From: Streptomyces sp. NBC_00224
GTDB lineage: Bacteria; Actinomycetota; Actinomycetes; Streptomycetales; Streptomycetaceae
DNA: 64,000 nt
Assembly (NCBI RefSeq): GCF_041435195.1
Contig: NZ_CP108106.1
Location: 1,488,001-1,552,000, forward strand
Direction of reading: 5' to 3'
Below, piece by piece: positions 8,120 to 35,296 of the stretch (its first letter is position 1; every line of letters begins with the position of its first letter). A model generated the notes under the pieces. That model did no database searches and had not been told where the DNA came from. It saw only the letters and a program-made list of their open reading frames with translations. Made by a program: the position numbers and the translations under genes.

Positions 8120-9226
8120 GTGAGCACGCGTACCGGCCGTGGAGCGATGACCGTAGGTGTCGTCGCGATGGCCGTCACCCTCGCCGCATGCGGCGGCGGG
8201 AGCAAGTCCGGCGACGGGTCCGACGGAGCCGCCAAGAAGAGGGACCTCAAGATAGGTCTGCTGCTGCCGGAGAAGCAGGCTGCTCGCTACGAGAAGTCGG
8301 ACAAGCCGCTGATCGAGAAGATGGTCGGCGAGCTGACCAGCGGCAAGGGCCAGGTCGTCTACGCGAACGCGGAGCAGGACGCGGCGCGCCAGAACCAGCA
8401 GGTCGACGCCATGATCGCCAAGAAGGTCGACGCGCTCATCATCGACGCGGTGGACTCCAAGGCCATCGGCGGCGCGGTGCAGCGGGCCAAGGACGCGGGC
8501 ATCCCCGTCGTCTCCTTCGACCGGCTCGCCGAGGGCCCGGTCGACGCGTACGTCTCGTTCGACAACGAGGACGTCGGCCATGTGCAGGCCAGGGCCCTGC
8601 TGGAGAACCTGGGCGAGAAGGCCAAGGACGGCCAGATCGTCATGATGAACGGTGCCCGCACCGACCCGAACGCCGCCCAGTTCAAGAAGGGCGCGCACAC
8701 CGAGCTGGACGGCAAGGTGAACATCGGGAAGGAGTACGACACCAAGGAGTGGAAGCCGGAGAACGCCGCCGCGAACATGCGCAGCGCGATCGCGGCCCTG
8801 GGCAAGGACAAGATCATCGGCGTCTACTCCGCCAACGACGGCATGGCCGGCGGCATCATCAGCGCCCTCAAGGCCGCGGGTGTCTCCAAGCTGCCGCCGA
8901 TCACCGGCCAGGACACCGAACTCGCCGGAGTCCAGCGCATCGTGGCGGGCGAGCAGTACATGAGCGTCTACAAGTCGTACGCGGAGGAGAGCCCGATCGC
9001 CGCGCAGATGGCGGTCGCGCTGGCCAAGGGGCAGAGCCTCATCTCCATCGCCAACTCCAAGACCAACAGCCCGACCAAGAGCGACATCCCCACCGCGCTC
9101 GTCCCGGTCGTCGCCGTGATCAAGGAGAACATCCGCTCCACCGTCGTCAGCGACGGCCTCTACACGATCGACGAGATCTGCACGGCCAAGTACAAGGCCG
9201 CCTGCAAGTCCGCCGGGCTGCAGTAA
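8120..9226 (+). CDS. sugar ABC transporter substrate-binding lipoprotein (xylose-binding-like)
   Basis: A 368-residue periplasmic-binding-protein-like lipoprotein. The signal ends in a lipobox, LAAC, and is followed by a Gly/Ser/Lys linker. The body is a type-I sugar-binding fold of the XylF/ChvE group: KIGLLLPEKQAARYEKSD, VDALIIDAVDSKAIGG, AGIPVVSFDRLA and VSFDNEDVGHVQARAL are characteristic. The GTG at 8120 follows AGGGAGGT. No permease or ATPase gene is adjacent and a strong terminator follows immediately, so it is an orphan receptor that must use transporter parts encoded elsewhere or act as a sensor. Confidence 0.85.
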   Translation: MSTRTGRGAMTVGVVAMAVTLAACGGGSKSGDGSDGAAKKRDLKIGLLLPEKQAARYEKSDKPLIEKMVGELTSGKGQVVYANAEQDAARQNQQVDAMIAKKVDALIIDAVDSKAIGGAVQRAKDAGIPVVSFDRLAEGPVDAYVSFDNEDVGHVQARALLENLGEKAKDGQIVMMNGARTDPNAAQFKKGAHTELDGKVNIGKEYDTKEWKPENAAANMRSAIAALGKDKIIGVYSANDGMAGGIISALKAAGVSKLPPITGQDTELAGVQRIVAGEQYMSVYKSYAEESPIAAQMAVALAKGQSLISIANSKTNSPTKSDIPTALVPVVAVIKENIRSTVVSDGLYTIDEICTAKYKAACKSAGLQ

Positions 9227-22594: not shown

Positions 22595-22755
22595 ATCGCG
22601 GTGTACAGAGGGTGACCGTCCGGCAAGCGGGAGGGACCGGAATCCGCTCTTCCTGACACAGTTCCGGCCAAAGGGAAGCCGGAAAACGCGCTGTCCCCGC
22701 TCCATGCGGGAGCTTGTTGTACGCGGGAAGCCCGATGACCTGCGCGGGGGGAACG

Positions 22756-25314
22756 ATGCCGTACGACCTGGTACCGGGGGCGTTCGTCGCCAGGGAGCAG
22801 GAGCGGAAACAGGTGCTGGGGGCCGTTCTGGCCAGGAGAGGGGCCGCGGTCGTCGGGCCCGGCGGTGTCGGCAAGACGGCCCTGCTCACGGCCGTCACCT
22901 CACAGCTGGGCGCCTCCCGCTTCGAAGTCGTCTGGACAGCCGCCACCGAGGCGAGCCGCCAGGTGCCGTTCGGGGTCTTCCGCGGGCTGCTCGGCGTCGG
23001 CGGCCGCCTCGACCACGGCCAGGCGTACGGTCTGCTGCGCACCGAGCTCGCCCGCCGCGCGGGGCGGCGCACCCCGGTGCTCGTCATCGACGACGTCCAC
23101 CACCTCGACGACGCGTCCGCCGCTCTGACGCTGAGTCTGGCCGGTGACGGGAATCCGCGCCTCGTCGTCTCCGCGCAGTCAGGGCTGCCCGCCTCCGACG
23201 CCGTCGTCGCGCTCTGGAAGGACAGCTATCTGGAGCGCCTCGACATCGCGCCGTTCGGCCTCGCCGACACGGCCCGGCTCGTGCACGCGCTGATGGACGG
23301 CGCCGCCGCCCACCCCACGGTGGACCTGCTCTACCAGTGGACCGGCGGAAATCCGCTCTTCCTCACCGAACTGGCCCGCCACGGCCGCGCCACGCGCCGC
23401 CTGGTCAGCGCGGGCGGCCTGTGGTGGTGGCGGGGCCCGCTGAGCGTGCCGCCCCGGCTGGCCGAACTCTTCGAGCGCGAACTGCGCGGCCTCGACCCGC
23501 GCCACCAGGACGCCCTGGCGGCGGTCGCCCTGGGCGAACCGCTCTCCCTGCCCGTACTGGAAGCGGTCGCCCCGGACGTCGTGGAGAGCCTGGAGGAGCA
23601 GGGCCTGCTGTGCACGGTGGAGATCGGCGGGCAGATCCTGGTCCGGCTCGGCCAGCCGATGCTGGGCGCGGCGCTGCGCCACCGGCTGCCCCGGCTGCGG
23701 CGCCGACGGCTCGCCGCGGCCCTGCTCGACGCGTGCACCCCCAGCGGCCCCGATCCGGTGACCCGGGCGCGCTGGCAGCTCGACGCCCACGGCCCGGTCG
23801 ACTCGGCGCTGCTGATCCGCGCGGCGGAAACGGTGTGCCGCCAGGATCCCGAGCTGGCGTGCCGCTTCGCCCGCCGGGCCCTTGAGCGCTCCAGCGCCGC
23901 CGCCGTCCCGCTGGCCCACGCGCTGGTCGAGCTGGGTGACACCGCACAGGCCCGCAAGGTGCTGGAGCGGACGCGCGAGGCGGCGGCCACACCCAGCGGC
24001 CGGCTGCGGCTCGCCACGGCACTCGCCGCCCACCGCTGCTGGGCCGACCGCGACCCGGCGGGCGCCTCCGACGAGCTCGTCGCCCTGCGGGCCGAGGCGA
24101 CGGCGCCCAGCGCGCAGGCCGCGCTGGACGGCGTCCACGCCCTGGTCCTGCTCTTCGGCGGCCGCACCGCCGCGGCGGCACGGCTGGCCGAACGGGTCCT
24201 GCACGAGGCCTTCCACGGGCCCGGCGTCGCCGCCGCCCGTCTCGCGCTCGCCGCCTCCCTCGCCCTGACCGGGCGTACGGCGGACGCCGCGACGCTGGCC
24301 GAGGACCCGTCCCCGGACCGGGCACTGCCTTCCTATCTGCCCGATCTCGCCACCTCGCTGCGCGCCTTCGCACAGCTGTGGCCCGCCTCCGGCCCGCTCA
24401 GACCCATCGACTCCCGGCCCCTTCCCCGCCGGGCGGGCCAGGGCCTGCCGCCCGGTGGGGAAGGGGCGTTGCTCGGTGGCTACCTCCAGTGGGTGAGCGG
24501 CCGGCGTACGGAGGCGATGGCGCGGCTGCGCGAGGCGGTGGTCCAACAGGCGGGCGGCCCCCGCCTGTTCCTGACGGAGGCCTCCAGCTGGCTCGCCATC
24601 TGTCTGGCCGAGGAGCAGCGCCCCGACTGCGCCGAGCAGGCCATCGCGCCCTGCTGGGCGGACCGGGTGGCGGTGGTTCCCGGCCAAGTGCACCGGGCGG
24701 CCGCGGTGATAGCGGCCGCGCGCGGGGATTCGGCGGGCGCGGCGGTCTCGATACGGGCCGCCGTGGACGCGGCGCGGGAGGCGGGGTGCTGGGCGGTGGA
24801 GGCCGAGTACCTGACCTGCGCGGCGTGGCTGTCCCCCGCCGGACCGCCGCCCGCCGTGCTCGACCGGCTGACCGAAGTCGTCCGCCACGTCGACGCGCCG
24901 CGGCTGGTCACGGGGGCGGAGGCCGTGCTGGCGCTGGCCCGCGGCGCCGGTCCGGAGCTGCTCGACCACGCCGTACGTCTCGACGCGCTCGGTCTGAGTA
25001 CCCAGGCGTGGCGGCTCGCGGAGCGCGCGGCCGCCACGCTCCAGAAGCAGGGTGGCAGCCGCCGCGGTGACGCCGTGGTGCTGGTGGGGCGGCTGCGCGA
25101 GCGGCTCGGGGTGGCTGCGCCACCCGCCCAGCCGGTCGCGCTCACCACCCGGGAGGTGGAGATCGCCTCACTGGCCGCCGGTGGCCTGTCCGACCGGGCG
25201 ATCTCCCACCGGCTCGCGGTGTCCGTCCGTACCGTCGAGAGCCACCTCACCCGGATCTACCGCAAGCTCGGCGTGCACTCCCGGCGCGATCTGCCGCCCG
25301 TGCTGCGCGGCTGA
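22756..25314 (+). CDS. LAL-type LuxR regulator with AAA ATPase domain
   Basis: An 852-residue large ATP-binding regulator of the LuxR family. The P-loop VGPGGVGKT is at residues 33-41 and a Walker B-like TPVLVIDDVHHLDDAS follows at about 110-125. A long helical, TPR-like middle connects to a C-terminal LuxR HTH: LTTREVEIASLAAGGLSDRAISHRLAVS and TVESHLTRIYRKLGVHSRRDLP. Such proteins commonly activate natural-product clusters in Streptomyces. The ATG at 22756 follows GGGGGGAA. The 3' end overlaps the convergent ABC transporter gene by 147 nt, which points to a link with the peptide/export cassette next to it. Confidence 0.88.
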   Translation: MPYDLVPGAFVAREQERKQVLGAVLARRGAAVVGPGGVGKTALLTAVTSQLGASRFEVVWTAATEASRQVPFGVFRGLLGVGGRLDHGQAYGLLRTELARRAGRRTPVLVIDDVHHLDDASAALTLSLAGDGNPRLVVSAQSGLPASDAVVALWKDSYLERLDIAPFGLADTARLVHALMDGAAAHPTVDLLYQWTGGNPLFLTELARHGRATRRLVSAGGLWWWRGPLSVPPRLAELFERELRGLDPRHQDALAAVALGEPLSLPVLEAVAPDVVESLEEQGLLCTVEIGGQILVRLGQPMLGAALRHRLPRLRRRRLAAALLDACTPSGPDPVTRARWQLDAHGPVDSALLIRAAETVCRQDPELACRFARRALERSSAAAVPLAHALVELGDTAQARKVLERTREAAATPSGRLRLATALAAHRCWADRDPAGASDELVALRAEATAPSAQAALDGVHALVLLFGGRTAAAARLAERVLHEAFHGPGVAAARLALAASLALTGRTADAATLAEDPSPDRALPSYLPDLATSLRAFAQLWPASGPLRPIDSRPLPRRAGQGLPPGGEGALLGGYLQWVSGRRTEAMARLREAVVQQAGGPRLFLTEASSWLAICLAEEQRPDCAEQAIAPCWADRVAVVPGQVHRAAAVIAAARGDSAGAAVSIRAAVDAAREAGCWAVEAEYLTCAAWLSPAGPPPAVLDRLTEVVRHVDAPRLVTGAEAVLALARGAGPELLDHAVRLDALGLSTQAWRLAERAAATLQKQGGSRRGDAVVLVGRLRERLGVAAPPAQPVALTTREVEIASLAAGGLSDRAISHRLAVSVRTVESHLTRIYRKLGVHSRRDLPPVLRG

Positions 25315-27123
25315 GGAGGCGGGCTCCGAGGTGTACGCGGCCGCGTGGAGCGCGTACATGTCCGCGTAACGGCCGCCGCGCGCCAACAGGTCGGTGTGCG
25401 CGCCCTGTTCGACGATCCGGCCGCCGTCCAGGACGACGATCAGGTCGGCCTCGCGCACGGTGGTGAACCGGTGCGACACGATCACGGTGGTCGTCGCCGG
25501 GCCGGGCGCGCCCGCCCGCAGATACCGGCTGAGCAACTCGGCCTCGCTGTCCGGATCGAGACTGGCAGCGGGCTCGTCGAGGAGGACGAGGGCGGGCCGG
25601 GTCCGCATCCGGGCGCGGGCCAGTGCCAGCTTCTGCCACTGTCCCGCCGACAGGTCCGTGCCGTCCGGGAACGTCCGGCCGAGCTGGGTGTCGAGCCCCC
25701 GGCCCAGCGCCGCCACCACCTCGGCGGCGCCCGCCGACTCCAGGGCGGCCCACACCGCCTCCGGGTCGTCCAGCGCCCCGAGTTCACCGACACCGACCGC
25801 CTCCCGGGCGAGCAGCTCGAACCGGCAGAAGTCCTGGAAGCACGCCGTGATCCGCGCCGACCACTGCTCGGCGGGCATCCCGGCCAGGTCCTCGCCGCCG
25901 AAGGTGATCCGCCCGGCGGACACCGGTTGCAGCCCGGCGAGCAGCGCGATCAGCGTGGACTTGCCCGCCCCGTTGTCGCCGACCACGGCGACGGTGGCCC
26001 CGGCGGGCAGGCTCAGGTCGACGGGCCCGAGCGCCGGTTCCGTACGGCCCGGATAGGTGAACGAGACGCCTTCCAGGACGAGATCGCCGCCGGATTCCTG
26101 TACGTGGCCCGGCCGCGCGGCATCCTGCCGTTCGGTGCCCCGCCGCGTCCCGCTCCCCCGCGCGTAGTCGACCAGCCGCAGATACAGCGCGACCGTGTCG
26201 AGCGAGCGGCGCAGCCAGCCGATCAGCCAGCCGAGGCCGGTGGTCGCGCCGACCAGCCGCGTACTCAGCAGCAGGACCAGCACCGCCTGGCCCGCCGAAC
26301 CGGTTCCGTCGATCACCGATCGCGCGATCAGGTAGAGGCCGCCGATGAGCGCCGACGCGAAGACCAGCCACCCCGCGGCGACGGCGACCGCGCCCTTGGC
26401 CCGGGCCGCCTCACGCGGACCGCTCGCCGCGAGGAAGGCGTCCCGGTGGCGTGCCGAGAGCTCACCGGCGAGCCGGTACAGCCGCACCTCCCGGGCCGGT
26501 GCCGGATCGGTGGCCAGGGAGAACACGGCCCGGCGACGGCGGTCGGCCGCGGCACCCGCCCGCTCCGCCCCCGCCACCAGCCGCGCCTGCCGGCGGTTGG
26601 CCCCGGCCAGCGGCACGATCGTCAACGGCAGCAGCGCGAGCAGCGGATGCGCCCCCGCGAGCAGGACCAGCGCGCCCAGGAACCGGGCCACCAGGTTCGC
26701 GTTCTCCACCAGCGCGGCCAGGGCGGTGCCGAACTCCCCGCGCCGCTGGCGCACCACCTCGGCGGTGTCGAGGAACTCGGGGTCCTGGTAGTGCCCGATG
26801 TGCGGCGGCTCCGAGCACAGGGTCATCAGCCTGCGGTCGAATTCGAGGCCCACCCGGTGCTGCAGCACCAGCCGCAGATCGGTGGCGATCGCGGCGGCCT
26901 GGTGCACGAAGACGGTGACGCCGAGCAGGAGCAGCCCGCCGTGCACCGCCTCGGTACGGTCGTGGCCTCCGGCGCCGTCGACCATCCACTGCAGGCCCAC
27001 CGCCTGGAGCGCCGCCACGACGTTGAGCAGCGGGGAGAGGGTCAGGACCACCAGGGCGCGCCGGGGGTCCGCCCTGACGGCGGTCCCGACCAGCAGACGG
27101 ACAGCTGCGAGGCTCTTACGCAC
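25168..27123 (-). CDS. ABC transporter, fused permease and ATPase (second half-transporter)
   Basis: A 651-residue exporter half with an N-terminal six-helix membrane domain (about residues 15-300) and a C-terminal nucleotide-binding domain: Walker A GDNGAGKS, signature LSAGQWQKLALARARM (LSAGQ in place of LSGGQ), Walker B ALVLLDEPAASLDPDSEAELL and the switch histidine in TVIVSHRFTTV. The GTG at 27123 follows GGGGAGGAAG and overlaps the upstream transporter gene by 8 nt, so the two should form a heterodimer. The last ~48 residues extend past the family end, antisense to the LAL regulator gene. Confidence 0.88.
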   Translation of the reverse strand: MRKSLAAVRLLVGTAVRADPRRALVVLTLSPLLNVVAALQAVGLQWMVDGAGGHDRTEAVHGGLLLLGVTVFVHQAAAIATDLRLVLQHRVGLEFDRRLMTLCSEPPHIGHYQDPEFLDTAEVVRQRRGEFGTALAALVENANLVARFLGALVLLAGAHPLLALLPLTIVPLAGANRRQARLVAGAERAGAAADRRRRAVFSLATDPAPAREVRLYRLAGELSARHRDAFLAASGPREAARAKGAVAVAAGWLVFASALIGGLYLIARSVIDGTGSAGQAVLVLLLSTRLVGATTGLGWLIGWLRRSLDTVALYLRLVDYARGSGTRRGTERQDAARPGHVQESGGDLVLEGVSFTYPGRTEPALGPVDLSLPAGATVAVVGDNGAGKSTLIALLAGLQPVSAGRITFGGEDLAGMPAEQWSARITACFQDFCRFELLAREAVGVGELGALDDPEAVWAALESAGAAEVVAALGRGLDTQLGRTFPDGTDLSAGQWQKLALARARMRTRPALVLLDEPAASLDPDSEAELLSRYLRAGAPGPATTTVIVSHRFTTVREADLIVVLDGGRIVEQGAHTDLLARGGRYADMYALHAAAYTSEPASSAAQHGRQIAPGVHAELAVDPGEVALDGTDGHREPVGDRPVGQATGGQ

Positions 27124-28963
27124 GGCTGCTTCCTCCCCGTATTCCTTCCCGTATTCCTTGCCTTGCCGCAAGCGTTTCGTCCCGTGCCGCGAAGGGCTGG
27201 GACTGCACACGGAACATCCGTGCGTACCGGCCACCGGCGGCCACCAGCTCGTCGTGCGTGCCGTACTCGCTGACGCGGCCGTCCTCGACGACGGCGATCC
27301 GGTCCGCGAGGCGGACGGTGGCGAACCGGTGCGAGACGAGGACGGTGGTCAGCCCGGCGGTGATGTCCAGGAAGCGGGCGTACAGCTCGTGTTCCGCCTG
27401 GACGTCGAGGTGGGCCGTGGGCTCGTCGAGGACGAGCACGCGGGCGCCGTGCCGGACCGCGTACAGGGCCCGGCTCAGCGCCAGCCGCTGCCACTGCCCG
27501 CCGGACAGCTCGGTGCCGTCGGTGTAGGCGCCGCTGAGCAAGGTGTCCCAACCGCCGGGCAGTTCGGCCTCGACACCGAGGAAGCCACCGAGCCGGGTGG
27601 CCTCGGTGAGCGCCTCCTCGTCGGCGTCCGCCTCGATCCGGCCGAAGCCGACGTTGTCGCGTACGGAGAACGGGTAGCGGACGAAGTCCTGGAAGACCAC
27701 GGCCAGTTGGCGGCGCCAGGACTCGGGGTCGTGGGCGCGCAGATCCTGGCCGTCGACGGTGATGCGGCCGCTGTCCGGCCGGTAGAGCCCGGCGAGCAGT
27801 TTGGTGAGCGTGCTCTTGCCCGCGCCGTTGTCCCCGACGATCGCGAGCGAGGAGCCCACCGGGAGGGCGAGGTCCAGGCCGTCGAGGACCCGGCCGCGAC
27901 CGCCGGGGTAGGCGAAGCCGACCTTCTCGAAGCGGATCTCCCGCTGCGGCAGACCGGCCGCGCCGAGCCGTCCCGCTTCCCCGTCCGTCCCCAGCTCACC
28001 GACCGCCAGCGCGGCCGGGACCGCGGCGCTCGCCGTGTGCAGCATCCACTGGAGGTCCCCGCTGAAGCCGAGCGCGAACAGGCCGAGCAACGCCTGCAGG
28101 GCGACGGTCAGTTGCTCCACGGAGCGGGCGCCGTGGGTGGCCTGGTGGACGAGCGGGAGCACGACCGCGAGGTGCGCCGCGAGCAGCAGCAGGATCGCCA
28201 TGGCGTGGCGGCGCGGGCTGACCCTGGCCCGGCGCATCTGCACCATCCCGTCCCACCAGGCCGCGGTGAACCGCTCGACGAGCCAGGAGCGCAGGCCGAA
28301 GAGGCGCACCTCCTTCGCGGCGGGCGCCGTGGTGGCGACCTCGCGCAGATAGGCGGCGCGGCGCAGTTGCGCGGTCTCGCCCGCATGCGCGGACACCGAC
28401 CGCTGGATCTCCTTCTCCTGCCAGCGCCCGGTGACCACCCAGGCGGAGCCCAGCACGACCGGCATCCACCACTGCCCGGCCCAGCCGAGCAGCACGGCCG
28501 ACACCAGTCCGGTCAGCCGGAGCGGAACGAGCCCGGCGAGCGCGGTGACCGCCTGCCCCGGGGGGTGCGCGCCGAGGCCGACGGCCCGGGCGCGCTCGAT
28601 GCGGTCGGCCACGTCCGCGTCGTCCAGGTGGCCGATCTGCGCCGGGCGCAGGGCGCCGTCGACCGTGGCCTGGGCCGTCGCACCGTCGAGCGCGGTACCG
28701 AGGCGCCAGGCGAGCATCGTACGGATGGGGTCGAGGACGACATCGAGGAAGAGCACCACGCCGAGCAGCACGAGCCCGACCCTCACGCCGTGCATCGACT
28801 TGGAGGCGTCCGTCAGCGCGGCCACCAGCCGCCCGGTGGCCAGCGGCAGCAGGGCACTGCCCGCGGCCTGCCCGACGACGAGCGCGGCGAGCGCGATGGT
28901 CAGCCCTTTGGCGATCCGGGGCAACTGCCGGACCAGGAGCAGGATGTCACTGGTGGTCTTCAT
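27116..28963 (-). CDS. ABC transporter, fused permease and ATPase (first half-transporter)
   Basis: A 615-residue half-transporter: membrane domain (roughly residues 15-300), then an NBD with Walker A GDNGAGKS, signature LSGGQWQRLALSRALY, Walker B VLVLDEPTAHLDVQAEHELY and HRFATV switch region. The ATG at 28963 follows GGAGGG. It overlaps the second half-transporter by 8 nt and lies 94 nt downstream of a very short peptide ORF with a strong ribosome binding site; the radical SAM gene is divergent. Together they suggest an exporter for a small modified peptide rather than a drug pump, though no peptidase domain is present. Confidence 0.88.
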   Translation of the reverse strand: MKTTSDILLLVRQLPRIAKGLTIALAALVVGQAAGSALLPLATGRLVAALTDASKSMHGVRVGLVLLGVVLFLDVVLDPIRTMLAWRLGTALDGATAQATVDGALRPAQIGHLDDADVADRIERARAVGLGAHPPGQAVTALAGLVPLRLTGLVSAVLLGWAGQWWMPVVLGSAWVVTGRWQEKEIQRSVSAHAGETAQLRRAAYLREVATTAPAAKEVRLFGLRSWLVERFTAAWWDGMVQMRRARVSPRRHAMAILLLLAAHLAVVLPLVHQATHGARSVEQLTVALQALLGLFALGFSGDLQWMLHTASAAVPAALAVGELGTDGEAGRLGAAGLPQREIRFEKVGFAYPGGRGRVLDGLDLALPVGSSLAIVGDNGAGKSTLTKLLAGLYRPDSGRITVDGQDLRAHDPESWRRQLAVVFQDFVRYPFSVRDNVGFGRIEADADEEALTEATRLGGFLGVEAELPGGWDTLLSGAYTDGTELSGGQWQRLALSRALYAVRHGARVLVLDEPTAHLDVQAEHELYARFLDITAGLTTVLVSHRFATVRLADRIAVVEDGRVSEYGTHDELVAAGGRYARMFRVQSQPFAARDETLAARQGIREGIRGGSSRA

Positions 28964-29056
28964 GACCGGTTCACCCTCCGCCGGACGGGGTTCGCCGGCC
29001 CTCCCGGCCGACGGGTGCGGTGGCCGCTCCAGGACGGGAGCGACCACCGCTTCGCG

Positions 29057-29095
29057 TTAGCGACCGGTACCGACGGTCGGGGGCGGATACATCAT
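29057..29095 (-). CDS. very short peptide ORF, candidate precursor of a modified peptide
   Basis: The peptide MMYPPPTVGTGR is encoded from ATG at 29095 with GGAGGAGGT seven bases upstream, as good a ribosome binding site as any in the window, then TAA. The same frame is open upstream to a GTG at 29125, giving a 22-residue form with VTQSTEEVSL in front, but that GTG has no ribosome binding site. It sits between a divergent radical SAM gene and two ABC exporter genes on its own strand. I infer a precursor peptide (Tyr, Pro-rich, Gly-Thr-Gly core) or, less excitingly, a leader peptide. No homologue is known to me. Confidence 0.5.
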   Translation of the reverse strand: MMYPPPTVGTGR

Positions 29096-29173
29096 GAGGC
29101 TCACCTCCTCCGTGCTCTGGGTCACAGGAGAGGAAGCTAGCCGGAGGAGCGGGGCCGGGAGATCCGTATTCGA

Positions 29174-29270
29174 CTACGTAACTCAAAGCCGCCGCTACGC
29201 AGTTGGGGGCGCGCGGCTTGCGTACGTACCCCATGTGCGTACGTACGCGCCCGCGCTCATTGCGTACTTC
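29174..29270. promoter_or_regulatory. cluster of GTACGTAC-like repeats in divergent promoter region
   Basis: Five related units occur within 97 bp: ACTACGTAACT (29173-29183), GCTACGCAGTT (29194-29204), TTGCGTACGTACC (29218-29230), GTGCGTACGTACG (29235-29247) and TTGCGTACTTC (29260-29270). The two middle copies share GCGTACGTAC 17 bp apart. They fill the space between the peptide/ABC genes and the radical SAM gene, so they look like operator sites for a regulator that controls both directions, perhaps the nearby LAL protein. Confidence 0.55.
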
Positions 29271-29352
29271 GCCACGGACGACCGGCGGGCCGGGCGTTCG
29301 TAGCGTGCGGATCCGGCGACGTGTGTCGCCCCCGCGGCCTGGAGGTACGCCC

Positions 29353-30405
29353 ATGGACACCGTCGAGAACCCCAACGCCATCATCTGGGACGTCACGTTC
29401 GCCTGCCCGTTGCGCTGCTACCACTGCTACACGGAGTCGGGGCGGCGCCCCGCGAAGAACCTCAGCCACGACGAGATGATGCGGGTCGCGGACGCGATCC
29501 TCTCCCTGGAGCCGCAGCAGATCACCCTGTGCGGCGGCGAGCCGCTGACCATCAAGCGGATCGTGGACGTCGCCCGCTACTTCTCGGACGCCGGGCTTGT
29601 GGTCTTCGTCTACACCAGCGGCTGGGCGGTGCCGGTGGCGACGGTCGAGGCCCTGGCCGAGGTGGTCTCCAAGATCGTGGTGAGCCTCGACGGAGCGACC
29701 GCCGCGACCCACGACCGGATACGGGGGCGCGCCGGTTCCTTCGCGCGGGCGACCGGCGCACTGGCCCGGATCGACGCGGAGGTGGGGCGCAGGATCGCGG
29801 CGGGGCTTGTGGCCCCGCGCTTCGGCATCGACTATGTCGTGATCCGCAGCAACTTCGACGAGTTGGACCGGATGTGCGCGGAGGTGGCGCCGCGTTTCCC
29901 GCATCTGGAGACGCTGTACTTCGGGGCCGTGGTGCCCACCGGGCTCGCCAGCCGCCCCTCGTTCGTCGAGCACGAGCTGCTGCGGGACGAGCAGGTGGCC
30001 GAGCTGATCGCGCCCGAGACCCGGCGCCGGCTCCAGGCGGCCGCCCCCGCCTCGGTCGCCGTGGAGACCACCGAGAACTTCGAGGTCCAGATGAACCCGG
30101 ACTTCCTCGCGCGCACCCCGGGTTTCCGCCCCATGGAGATCGAGCCGGACGGCGAGGTGCGCGGCATGCCGATCTACGAGGGCACGGTGGGCAGCCTGCT
30201 CACCGAGGACCCCCTGGTCGTGTGGCGGCGGTCGCGGGCGCGCTGGGACGACCCGTTCGTCGTCGACTGCCTCAACGCCGTGCGCACCCGCGCCGACTGG
30301 GCCGAGGCGGTGCGCCGCATCGACCTGCGGTTCGGCTCGCCCGAGGTGCGCGAGCGGATCGAGGCCCGCCCGGTCCAGCTGCCGGTGGCCGGCCGACCGG
30401 TATGA
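29353..30405 (+). CDS. radical SAM protein with cysteine-less SPASM-like tail
   Basis: A 350-residue radical SAM enzyme. The cluster motif is C18-x3-C22-x2-C25 (ACPLRCYHCYTESG) and the SAM-binding CGGEPL is at residues 60-65. The C-terminal part keeps the SPASM/Twitch layout (MEIEPDGEVRG...EGTVGSLLTEDPLVVW), but the position normally held by Pro-Cys reads MP, so no auxiliary iron-sulfur cluster is evident. Relatives modify ribosomal peptides. GGAGGT lies eight bases before the ATG. It is divergent from the short peptide ORF and the ABC pair, across an array of GTACGTAC-like repeats, and ends in a hairpin. Confidence 0.88.
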   Translation: MDTVENPNAIIWDVTFACPLRCYHCYTESGRRPAKNLSHDEMMRVADAILSLEPQQITLCGGEPLTIKRIVDVARYFSDAGLVVFVYTSGWAVPVATVEALAEVVSKIVVSLDGATAATHDRIRGRAGSFARATGALARIDAEVGRRIAAGLVAPRFGIDYVVIRSNFDELDRMCAEVAPRFPHLETLYFGAVVPTGLASRPSFVEHELLRDEQVAELIAPETRRRLQAAAPASVAVETTENFEVQMNPDFLARTPGFRPMEIEPDGEVRGMPIYEGTVGSLLTEDPLVVWRRSRARWDDPFVVDCLNAVRTRADWAEAVRRIDLRFGSPEVRERIEARPVQLPVAGRPV

Positions 30406-33062: not shown

Positions 33063-33665
33063 TTACCCCTTCGTACCCTTCACGCTCCGCACATCCGGCC
33101 ACGAGCGGCGGCGCAATTGCGCCCAAGTGTGCAGCGGGCCGCACCACTCCTCCGTCGACACGGGGAGTTCGGCGCCCTCCAGGACGAGGGGCATGACCCG
33201 CAGATACAGCAGATACGCCCGGGCGGCCGCCTCCTCGCACAGCGCGGCGGCCGTGGCGCGCTCGGCGACGGCGAAGCGCTCCACCTCGACGATCGGCCCC
33301 GCGTCCACCCGCTCGACCATGTGGTGGCAGGTCACCCCGAACGTCTCCGCCGACCGCGCCAGCGCCACCTCGTACATCCCCACGCCCCGGATGTCGGGCG
33401 GCCCTGGATGGAAGTTGAGGGCGCCGCGCCGGGCGCGCTTCAGATCCTGGCCGGACAGGATGTAGTCGGCCTTGAAGCCGACTATCCAGTCGCCCTCCCA
33501 GCCGCCGAGCGGGTCCTGGGGGACCGGGTCGCCGTGCTCCCACAGCACGTGCGAGACGGCCGCACCGGCCGCCCGGGCGAACCGCCCGACCAGTTCGCCC
33601 CATGCCGACCTGTCCGTGACCAGCAGCAACGACGGATCGCCCCGTCGCGCGTGATGAGCTCCCAC
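33063..33665 (-). CDS. formyltransferase family protein
   Basis: A 200-residue protein of the formyl_trans_N fold (as in Fmt, PurN and ArnA). The key region is GALNFHPGPPDIRGVGMYEVAL, where the catalytic histidine and the RG of the folate site are recognisable, preceded by GFKADYIL; HHMVERVDAGPIVEVERF is the usual downstream segment with the catalytic aspartate. It lacks the C-terminal tRNA-binding domain, so it probably formylates a small molecule. The GTG at 33665 follows GAGGGGGG. It is divergent from a truncated acyl-CoA-ligase-like gene, perhaps what is left of a biosynthetic locus. Confidence 0.72.
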   Translation of the reverse strand: MGAHHARRGDPSLLLVTDRSAWGELVGRFARAAGAAVSHVLWEHGDPVPQDPLGGWEGDWIVGFKADYILSGQDLKRARRGALNFHPGPPDIRGVGMYEVALARSAETFGVTCHHMVERVDAGPIVEVERFAVAERATAAALCEEAAARAYLLYLRVMPLVLEGAELPVSTEEWCGPLHTWAQLRRRSWPDVRSVKGTKG

Positions 33666-33919
33666 GCGTCCCCCCTCGCTCGGGCCCGCCTGCCCGGCAT
33701 GAGCCAGGGTGCTGACAGGGTGACGACACGTCAAGAGCGCCCGGGAGCGGGCGCCCGGCGGACCGGCGCCACTCTCCCGCGACTTCGCCAACCCCCGCCC
33801 CACCAGCCCCAATCGTCGCCCTGTGCACGATCCGGCAAGGAGCGCGCACGGATCGTCAAGGACATCTCTAGTCGGCCCTCGTTGAATGAGGCACAAGCCG
33901 ACCAGGAGGGGGCAGGCAG

Positions 33920-35296
33920 TTGAACACCCCATCGCAAGCAGACCACGGATCCGCCCACGCGGACACCTTCGTACGGGACCACCTACCACCCGGGCCGCTC
34001 CAGCCCGACCTGCTCCTCGGCATGCCCTCCTTGCGCTTCCCCGCGCGGTTGAACTGCGCGTGGGAACTCCTGGAGGGGGGCGGTTCGTTGGACCGGGCAC
34101 AGCGGACCGCCGTGCTGTCCCCGCACGGCGTGCGCTGGACGTATGAGCATCTCACCGCCGTCGTGGCGCGCATCGTGCACGTCCTGACCGAGGACATGGG
34201 CCTGGTGCCGGGCAACCGGGTGCTGCTGCGCGGCGCCAACACACCGCTGCTGGCGGCGATCTGGCTCGCGGTGGTGCGGGCGGGCGGGGTGGTCGTGGCC
34301 ACGGCGCCCACGCTGCGGACCGAGGAGCTCACCTATGTGATCGACAAGGCCCGGGTCACCCACGCCCTGTGCGAGTCCGGCCTGCGGTCCCAGCTGGAGT
34401 CGACCGGGCGCGTGCCCCGGACGATGTTCTTCCGTGGCGGGGCGGGCGACGAGGCCGGTCTGGAACGGGCGATGGCGGACAAGCCCGACTGGTCGCTCCC
34501 GGTCGACACCGCCGCGACCGACCCCTGTCTGATCGCCTTCACCTCCGGCGCCGGGGGGATGCCCAAGGCCACGGTGCACTCGCACCGCGATCTGATGGCC
34601 GCGTGCAACTCCTTCCCCCGGCACGTCCTGAGGGCCACCAGTGACGACCGCTTCATCGGCACCCCCTCACTCGCGGACACCTACGGGCTGGGCGGACTGC
34701 TCCTCTTCCCCCTGCACGTCGGCGCCTCGACCGTGCTGCTCGACACCTCTTCGCCTCGCCAACTCGCCCGCGCCATCGGGGAGTTCCGTGCCACGGTCTG
34801 CTTCAGCGGGCCCGCCCGCTACCAGGCGATCTGCGCCGACACCACCCCGTACGACCTGGCCTCGCTGCGTGAGTGCGTCTCGTCGGGAGAGGCGCTGCCG
34901 ACCGAAACGCGCCGGAGATGGAAGCAGCGGACCGGCAACAGCGTGATCGACGGGCTCAGCTCCGCCGAGATGTTCCACATCTTCGTCTCGATGCGCGGCG
35001 AGGAGGCCTGGTCCCGGCCCGGCGCGATCGGGCGGGCCGTCCCCGGCTATCTCACCGCGATCGTCGACGACTCCGGGCGCCCCCTCCCGTACGGCCAGGT
35101 CGGCGCCCTCGCCGTCAAGGGGCCCACGGGCTGCCGCTACCTCGACGACGTACGCCAGCAGGACACCGTGCGCAACGGCTGGACCTTCACGGGCGACGCC
35201 TGCTGGGCCGACGAGTACGGCTTCCTCTACTACCACTCCCGCATGGACGACCCGCTCAGCGATTCCGGACTGCCTCGCGGTAGTCACGCGGGCTGA
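33920..35296 (+). CDS. AMP-dependent acyl-CoA ligase-like protein, C-terminal domain missing
   Basis: A 458-residue adenylate-forming enzyme of the aryl-CoA ligase kind. The nucleotide loop IAFTSGAGGMPKATVHSH, the GLSSAEMFHIFVS motif and the GWTFTGDACWADEYGFLYYHSRMDD hinge region are present. The protein then ends with a short random-looking tail, so the whole C-terminal lid domain (about 100 residues, with the catalytic lysine) is absent. Its sense sequence stops where the convergent AraC gene ends, and the two overlap by 41 nt, which suggests a deletion. It may adenylate weakly or be dead. TTG start at 33920 behind AGGAGGGGG. Confidence 0.75.
   Translation: MNTPSQADHGSAHADTFVRDHLPPGPLQPDLLLGMPSLRFPARLNCAWELLEGGGSLDRAQRTAVLSPHGVRWTYEHLTAVVARIVHVLTEDMGLVPGNRVLLRGANTPLLAAIWLAVVRAGGVVVATAPTLRTEELTYVIDKARVTHALCESGLRSQLESTGRVPRTMFFRGGAGDEAGLERAMADKPDWSLPVDTAATDPCLIAFTSGAGGMPKATVHSHRDLMAACNSFPRHVLRATSDDRFIGTPSLADTYGLGGLLLFPLHVGASTVLLDTSSPRQLARAIGEFRATVCFSGPARYQAICADTTPYDLASLRECVSSGEALPTETRRRWKQRTGNSVIDGLSSAEMFHIFVSMRGEEAWSRPGAIGRAVPGYLTAIVDDSGRPLPYGQVGALAVKGPTGCRYLDDVRQQDTVRNGWTFTGDACWADEYGFLYYHSRMDDPLSDSGLPRGSHAG

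Follow-up and report, generated by a model that had tools for sequence, protein, structure and literature searches.

We describe a gene cassette of Streptomyces sp. NBC_00224 that, judged from sequence, probably encodes a leaderless pathway for a ribosomally synthesized and post-translationally modified peptide (RiPP), in which a radical S-adenosylmethionine (rSAM) enzyme would target an aromatic-Pro motif in a precursor of 10-14 residues and the product would be exported; we put the probability of this reading at about 0.8. The cassette lies in a stretch of 64,000 nucleotides (the window; contig NZ_CP108106.1, positions 1,488,001 to 1,552,000). Its central element is a 12-codon open reading frame (ORF), MMYPPPTVGTGR, written ATG ATG TAT CCG CCC CCG ACC GTC GGT ACC GGT CGC TAA, with CGGAGGAGGTGAGCCTC preceding the start codon. 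The ORF is flanked by the divergent rSAM gene and by two overlapping half-genes of an ATP-binding cassette (ABC) exporter (Table 1). A sequence-only reading of the window had pointed out this arrangement and the good ribosome-binding site (RBS) of the tiny ORF, and both were confirmed.

That reading had staked its proposal on the short ORF being conserved beside homologous rSAM and ABC genes, and this is what was observed: all 14 loci carrying an intact close rSAM gene have a tiny ORF of 10-14 amino acids, with a strong RBS and a hairpin after its stop codon. A first genome scan with the rSAM protein as query gave 11 loci, among them a distant Bacillota match (L011, 27%) and two contigs of one strain (L002 and L003), and further genome samples enlarged the set. 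The cassette set comprises 14 loci read in detail, with an rSAM protein of at least 60% identity (the window, L001, L002, L004-L009, L041, L042 and L061-L063, L003 being a duplicate of L002), and in all of them the rSAM frame is open to a normal stop. MMYPPPTVGTGR is identical in the window, L001, L002 and L041; MMYPPPTTGGN and MAYPPTGLGR were each seen twice (one copy of the latter with a GTG start), and MMYPPPTVGDAS, MMYPPPTTSGPRPS, MMYPPPTVGD, MMYPPPTVGE, MAFPPTTLGGTR and MAYPPTGVGR occur at one locus each. The common amino-acid pattern is M-[MA]-[YF]-P-P-[PT]-[TG]. In the alignment, the RBS AGGAGGTG is kept in 13/14 loci, and L009 (Kutzneria) has AGGTGGTG.

The shortness of the ORF is what would speak for a chance reading frame. 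Such an explanation is hardly credible given its presence in 14/14 loci of at least two genera, the synonymous codon changes (at Tyr3, Pro4, Pro5 and Gly9, among other positions, by codon counts) and the specificity of the genome scans. A DNA pattern built from the RBS and ORF of the cassette loci, GGTGN{4,9}ATGRYKTWYCCNCCNMCNAC, matched 11 of the 12 supplied genomes, in each solely at the cassette, and the control gave 0 matches; among 293 Streptomycetales genomes it matched two, both at this cassette. The sole genome of the 12 without a tiny-ORF match (G753) carries L010, a 78% relative in which the rSAM match begins at residue 118, residues 1-117 being missing, and the ABC match covers 43 residues only. 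The cassette type is rare, with 3/391 Streptomycetales genomes and 4/297 genomes of the Kutzneria family (centre genome counted).

As regards the start site, the sequence-only reading had offered an alternative in which translation begins at an upstream GTG. This would give a 22-residue precursor, MTQSTEEVSLMMYPPPTVGTGR, whose first ten residues serve as a leader. The in-frame GTG ten codons upstream of the ATG is found in the window, L001, L002 and L041, and in these loci alone; five others (L004, L007, L009, L042 and L062) have an in-frame stop three codons before the start, and the conserved RBS falls within the proposed extension. Because the GTG is not conserved and those stops lie so close, what is conserved is the gene in its short form, and we consider the longer one very improbable. 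Queried in its 22-residue form, the peptide matched no Pfam or NCBIfam model. A conserved ribosomal precursor gene stands beside a tailoring enzyme in 14/14 loci, as expected of a RiPP pathway. A leader is lacking, with ORFs of 10-14 residues in every locus and with Radical_SAM and Fer4_12 as the only Pfam domains of the rSAM enzyme.

The enzyme belongs to the rSAM superfamily by both its CX3CX2C motif and its fold. The cysteines of the motif (C18, C22 and C25) are present in at least 85 of 86 rSAM sequences. The AlphaFold2 model has a predicted local distance difference test score of 91.6, and among solved folds SkfB is its best match (Z 24.4). In contrast to SkfB, PqqE, MftC and other rSAM maturases of RiPPs or cofactors, no conserved auxiliary-cluster cysteines were found among the 86 sequences, so that the protein is not of the rSAM/SPASM type; with neither these cysteines in the enzyme nor Cys in the peptide, the features of sactipeptides and ranthipeptides are missing. 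Among the 25 NCBIfam matches listed, none attains its cut-off. Database searches returned 1020 relatives at E <= 0.001, not all of them necessarily of the same family, whereas a search of plasmids at E <= 1e-50 found none. All 14 cassette enzymes group in a single clade of the tree (support 100/99) with 29 rows, 15 of which are proteins without genomic context. Among these proteins, P0012, P0014 and P0017 (62-67% identity, with names including Plantactinospora and Actinoplanes) are known without their surrounding DNA. Besides those of the CX3CX2C motif, the near-invariant Cys175 (84/86) is the sole cysteine conserved in most of the 86 sequences. The excerpt of PMC8326336 that we cite reports leader-independent action with a critical Cys for rSAM peptide epimerases such as PoyD and EpeE, to which this additional cysteine gives the family a likeness. 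The idea of an epimerase was not adopted, as the placement of Cys175 in the active site was unsupported.

With respect to the other genes, both ABC half-genes and a LuxR-family regulator of the LAL type accompany the tiny ORF in 14/14 loci. By Pfam, neither half-exporter contains a peptidase domain, C39 included, which distinguishes them from peptidase-containing ABC transporters and fits a precursor that would have nothing to cleave at its N-terminus. Clustering the genes of 13 cassette loci revealed no gene common to all besides those for the rSAM enzyme, the ABC pair and the regulator. Within the fetched flanks, no LanKC or LanL lanthipeptide synthetase was found (0/14), and Cys is absent from all 14 peptides, which therefore lack the Ser/Thr plus Cys of a lanthipeptide core.

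The wider enzyme family was studied in 33 non-cassette loci whose rSAM proteins share 39-57% identity (all but one, 49-57%). In 22 of them the fetched flanks contain a class III/IV lanthipeptide synthetase, the type being confirmed by profile for five. The associated lanthipeptide precursors carry QWPCSNS, LWPCANS, AWPEPTRC, LFPCCGTC, LYPCTFTC, LWPCQVT, LYPCFATC, AHPCYSH and similar sequences. We applied one leader-based rule, in which the motif was not required, to LanKC/LanL loci with and without an rSAM gene. Precursor candidates were obtained in 18 of the 22 rSAM-linked loci and in 26 of 31 control loci (no rSAM within 4 kb). [WYFH]P was found in the core at 17/18 linked loci (24/27 candidates) and 2/26 control loci (2/34), with a Fisher p of 4e-9 on loci that is overstated because both sides include close relatives. 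The misses are an ORF in L090 that is probably spurious, one of the copies in L074, and L073, whose motif lies ahead of the point at which the core was cut. Overall, 28/36 non-cassette rSAM loci have an aromatic-Pro precursor; in L101 the rSAM gene is followed by a longer ORF containing YPEPT, and L099 has FPC. In L074 (13026-13355) and L086 (12866-13364) the precursors form arrays of three and four, respectively, nearly all with LYPC or LWPC.

The two control exceptions, L161 and L160, have a precursor ending in GSWPPPTAGSCCSTF, and its WPPPT is similar to YPPPT in the tiny peptide. L161 (G000:C1:1565060-1575678) lies in the genome of the window, with its synthetase about 17 kb past the point where the window ends. 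L160 is its counterpart, and both are LanL-like loci with the precursor MRESDVSALQMLEEEEAPDSGSWPPPTAGSCCSTF and no rSAM gene within 4 kb. Both genomes (G000 and G279) also carry an rSAM paralogue (L030 and L031), which joins L034 in the tree with a support of 88/91 that is not strong. The precursor neighbouring the L034 enzyme ends in GAWPEPTRCSCCSTF and is very similar to that of L161 and L160. The L161 precursor is thus likely served in trans by the paralogue at G000:C1:7846945. This second enzyme of the same family (54% identity; L030 7995-9011, at G000:C1:7846945-7847967) has no RiPP precursor that we could find nearby, and its upstream neighbour (L030 5335-7827), judged by eye, resembles a penicillin or acyl-homoserine lactone acylase.

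Short aromatic-Pro ORFs were also observed in a second group of loci. The rSAM proteins of L068, L069 and L070 form one separate clade (support 99/95). Directly 3' of the rSAM gene, and with a strong RBS, L068 encodes MAYWPPTKVSH (9136-9171), and L069 and L070, whose enzymes are nearly identical, encode MAWPSWPEGIR (L069 9073-9108). The upstream in-frame stop is 3 codons away in L068 and 19 codons away in L070. In L068 and L069, the two loci examined, a major facilitator superfamily (MFS) transporter gene comes next after the short ORF. These loci look like a second type of cassette. Farther downstream, L068 carries a gene for an M28 peptidase.

Another aspect to consider is the intergenic region between the two divergent units. 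Alignment of the precursor side revealed a TTGCGTA-N6-TACGGAT-like sequence followed by TAGC about 20 nt on, and a similar element faces the rSAM gene. The pattern GCTAN{18,24}RTCCGYRNNNNNNTACSYAA gave 19 matches in 13/14 genomes, all in the divergent intergenic region, and 0 in the control, a search that tests only the uniqueness of the pattern because the latter was derived from these very sites. The precursor side was matched in 13 genomes and, additionally, the rSAM side in G000, G279, G746 and G808; in the genome of the window the pattern is confined to the two sides of this region. These operator-like elements suggest that the two divergent units form a regulon of their own.

Downstream of the tiny ORF, the hairpin is present in 14/14 loci, with a stem of 12-18 bp that begins 6-15 nt after the stop and a predicted free energy of -27.5 to -38.1 kcal/mol. 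Behind it, L061 and L063 have a T-rich stretch, as does L007 in shorter form. It would act as a partial terminator or as an mRNA-stability element between the precursor and exporter genes. One could instead regard the ORF as a regulatory leader peptide, in which slowing of the ribosome at PPP governs the hairpin and hence the ABC genes, while the rSAM enzyme modifies something else. PPP in 10/14 peptides, a strong hairpin right past the stop and the ABC genes downstream agree with this explanation; however, PPP is lost in Kutzneria (FPPTT) and in L061-L063 (YPPTG), and at none of the 14 loci did the ORF pair with the 5' arm of the hairpin clearly better than shuffled sequences did (a fraction of 0.21-0.80 of the shuffles was as good). 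Attenuation was rejected on these duplex energies and on the loss of PPP. Furthermore, Rfam yielded just two matches, far under the gathering scores and taken as chance, and the aromatic-Pro motif common to the precursors of related rSAM clusters would be left unexplained. We therefore find the leader-peptide explanation unlikely.

The sequence-only reading had also proposed that the tiny peptide is the substrate of the rSAM enzyme. This proposal, in which the modification itself is deduced from gene content, is supported by the operator-like element, by the association of related enzymes with RiPP genes and by the shared aromatic-Pro. In the mechanism that we propose, the LAL regulator would control both divergent promoters, and the rSAM enzyme would bind and modify the [Y/F/W]-P segment directly, without leader recognition. 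A host peptidase would then trim the variable C-terminal tail, and the ABC pair would export the product. Candidate chemistries at aromatic-Pro are a C-C or C-N crosslink of the aromatic ring to the following residues, epimerisation, or oxidation. The presence of exporters and of a regulator with TPR repeats would also suit an unmodified peptide that leaves the cell as a signal or bacteriocin, with the rSAM enzyme serving another substrate, as would the fact that modification of the peptide is deduced and not observed. Nevertheless, the rSAM gene is the divergent partner in 14/14 cassette loci and related rSAM genes are found beside RiPP precursors with the same motif, so we judge this possibility less probable even than the leader peptide.

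Several observations weigh against the leaderless rSAM pathway and the substrate rule that goes with it. Neither a protease nor a second tailoring enzyme is common to the cassettes. Kutzneria gave no match to the operator pattern, and only 4/14 genomes have an exact match facing the rSAM gene. The aromatic-Pro motif was noticed first and tested afterwards, and part of the contrast between linked and control loci may be phylogeny, the control precursors being mostly of one SapB-like kind. One of the three L074 precursors reads LMAC, without aromatic-Pro, and no aromatic-Pro precursor was found in 8/36 non-cassette loci (L030, L031, L040, L065, L071, L075, L085 and L096), although the L096 sequence is just 4 kb long and that of L040 stops close to the synthetase. 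In the second group, L069 has no in-frame stop across 156 codons upstream of its short ORF, so that the start of the latter is placed by its RBS, and the scans that found the L068-L070 ORFs required aromatic-Pro, which makes them supporting and not independent evidence.

Taking the loci together, the rSAM family might represent a new aromatic-Pro RiPP chemistry that acts both on leader-bearing lanthipeptides and on the products of leaderless genes of 10-14 residues, with ABC or MFS transporters alongside; the cassette peptide may also act as a pheromone that the LAL protein senses through a peptide-based autoinduction loop of Streptomyces, the LAL protein being one that contains TPR repeats. 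For this broader proposal we see even odds. If the cassette works as proposed, an rSAM enzyme acts on a leaderless peptide from a gene of 10-14 codons, which can be missed by annotation and by RiPP mining that depends on ORF length or on the presence of a leader or recognition domain. For an rSAM family that has no matching NCBIfam equivalog, aromatic-Pro would provide a concrete rule for the substrate. Moreover, the chemistry is tractable, as the short peptide can be synthesized and assayed directly with purified enzyme.

Regarding known systems, SapB-type clusters (ramCSAB-ramR) have a similar layout, in which the genes for a modifying enzyme and a small precursor are joined by two ABC half-genes and by a regulator of the LuxR type. 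The cassette differs in having an rSAM enzyme instead of LanKC, a leaderless precursor and, as regulator, a large LAL protein. The class III/IV lanthipeptide clusters with related rSAM genes share the enzyme family (49-56% identity) and have precursors with [WYFH]-P-[C/P/E]; unlike them, the cassette lacks LanKC/LanL, and its peptide lacks both Cys and a leader. The occurrence of rSAM enzymes in lanthipeptide clusters is mentioned in the cited portion of PMC7268733. Biarylitides and myxarylin likewise have an ultra-short precursor gene, in which two residues come before a Tyr at position 3, according to the sections of PMC12951456 consulted, where biarylitides are said to have the smallest reported precursor. 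Their crosslinking enzyme is a P450 (same source) and their precursor a pentapeptide, in contrast to the rSAM enzyme and 10-14 residues described here, and a P450 is not among the genes common to the cassette loci. The reference list of that paper includes a preprint about leaderless ribosomal peptides and their macrocyclisation by P450 enzymes. The string YPPPTVGTGR was found in none of the papers searched. Neither did we find the cassette described in the literature on RiPP precursors that are leaderless or very short, or on rSAM enzymes in lanthipeptide clusters, a search over listed titles and the openings of abstracts with subscription papers and preprints largely outside it.

Table 1. 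Coordinates within the window of the features of the candidate RiPP cassette.
Feature	Position	Strand	Details	Basis
LuxR-family LAL/STAND-type regulator (AAA/TPR/GerE)	22714..25314	plus	start codon provisional; 14/14 loci	Pfam GerE, AAA_16, TPR_19
ABC exporter half-gene 2	25168..27123	minus	5' start overlaps half-gene 1, 3' end overlaps convergent LAL gene; 14/14 cassette loci	
ABC exporter half-gene 1	27116..28963	minus	no C39 peptidase domain; 14/14 cassette loci	Pfam ABC_tran
14-bp hairpin, 6 nt past the stop of the tiny ORF	29017..29050	minus		stem conservation
12-codon candidate precursor ORF MMYPPPTVGTGR	29057..29095	minus	ATG 29095-29093, stop TAA	sequence, conservation, pattern specificity
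RBS GGAGGAGGTG of the tiny ORF	29102..29111	minus		alignment
Operator/promoter-like element of the precursor/ABC operon	29136..29181	minus	TTACGTA-N6-TACGGAT-N22-TAGC	alignment
Matching operator-like element of the rSAM gene	29260..29304	plus	TTGCGTA-N6-CACGGAC-N21-TAGC	pattern search
rSAM enzyme	29353..30405	plus	one [4Fe-4S] motif CX3CX2C	Pfam PF04055 3.3e-15

Outside the cassette, a gene with a formyltransferase domain stands divergent from an AMP-binding ligase gene at 33063-35296 of the window, possibly a small biosynthetic unit. The pair is retained in L001, and the ligase is also present in L041.

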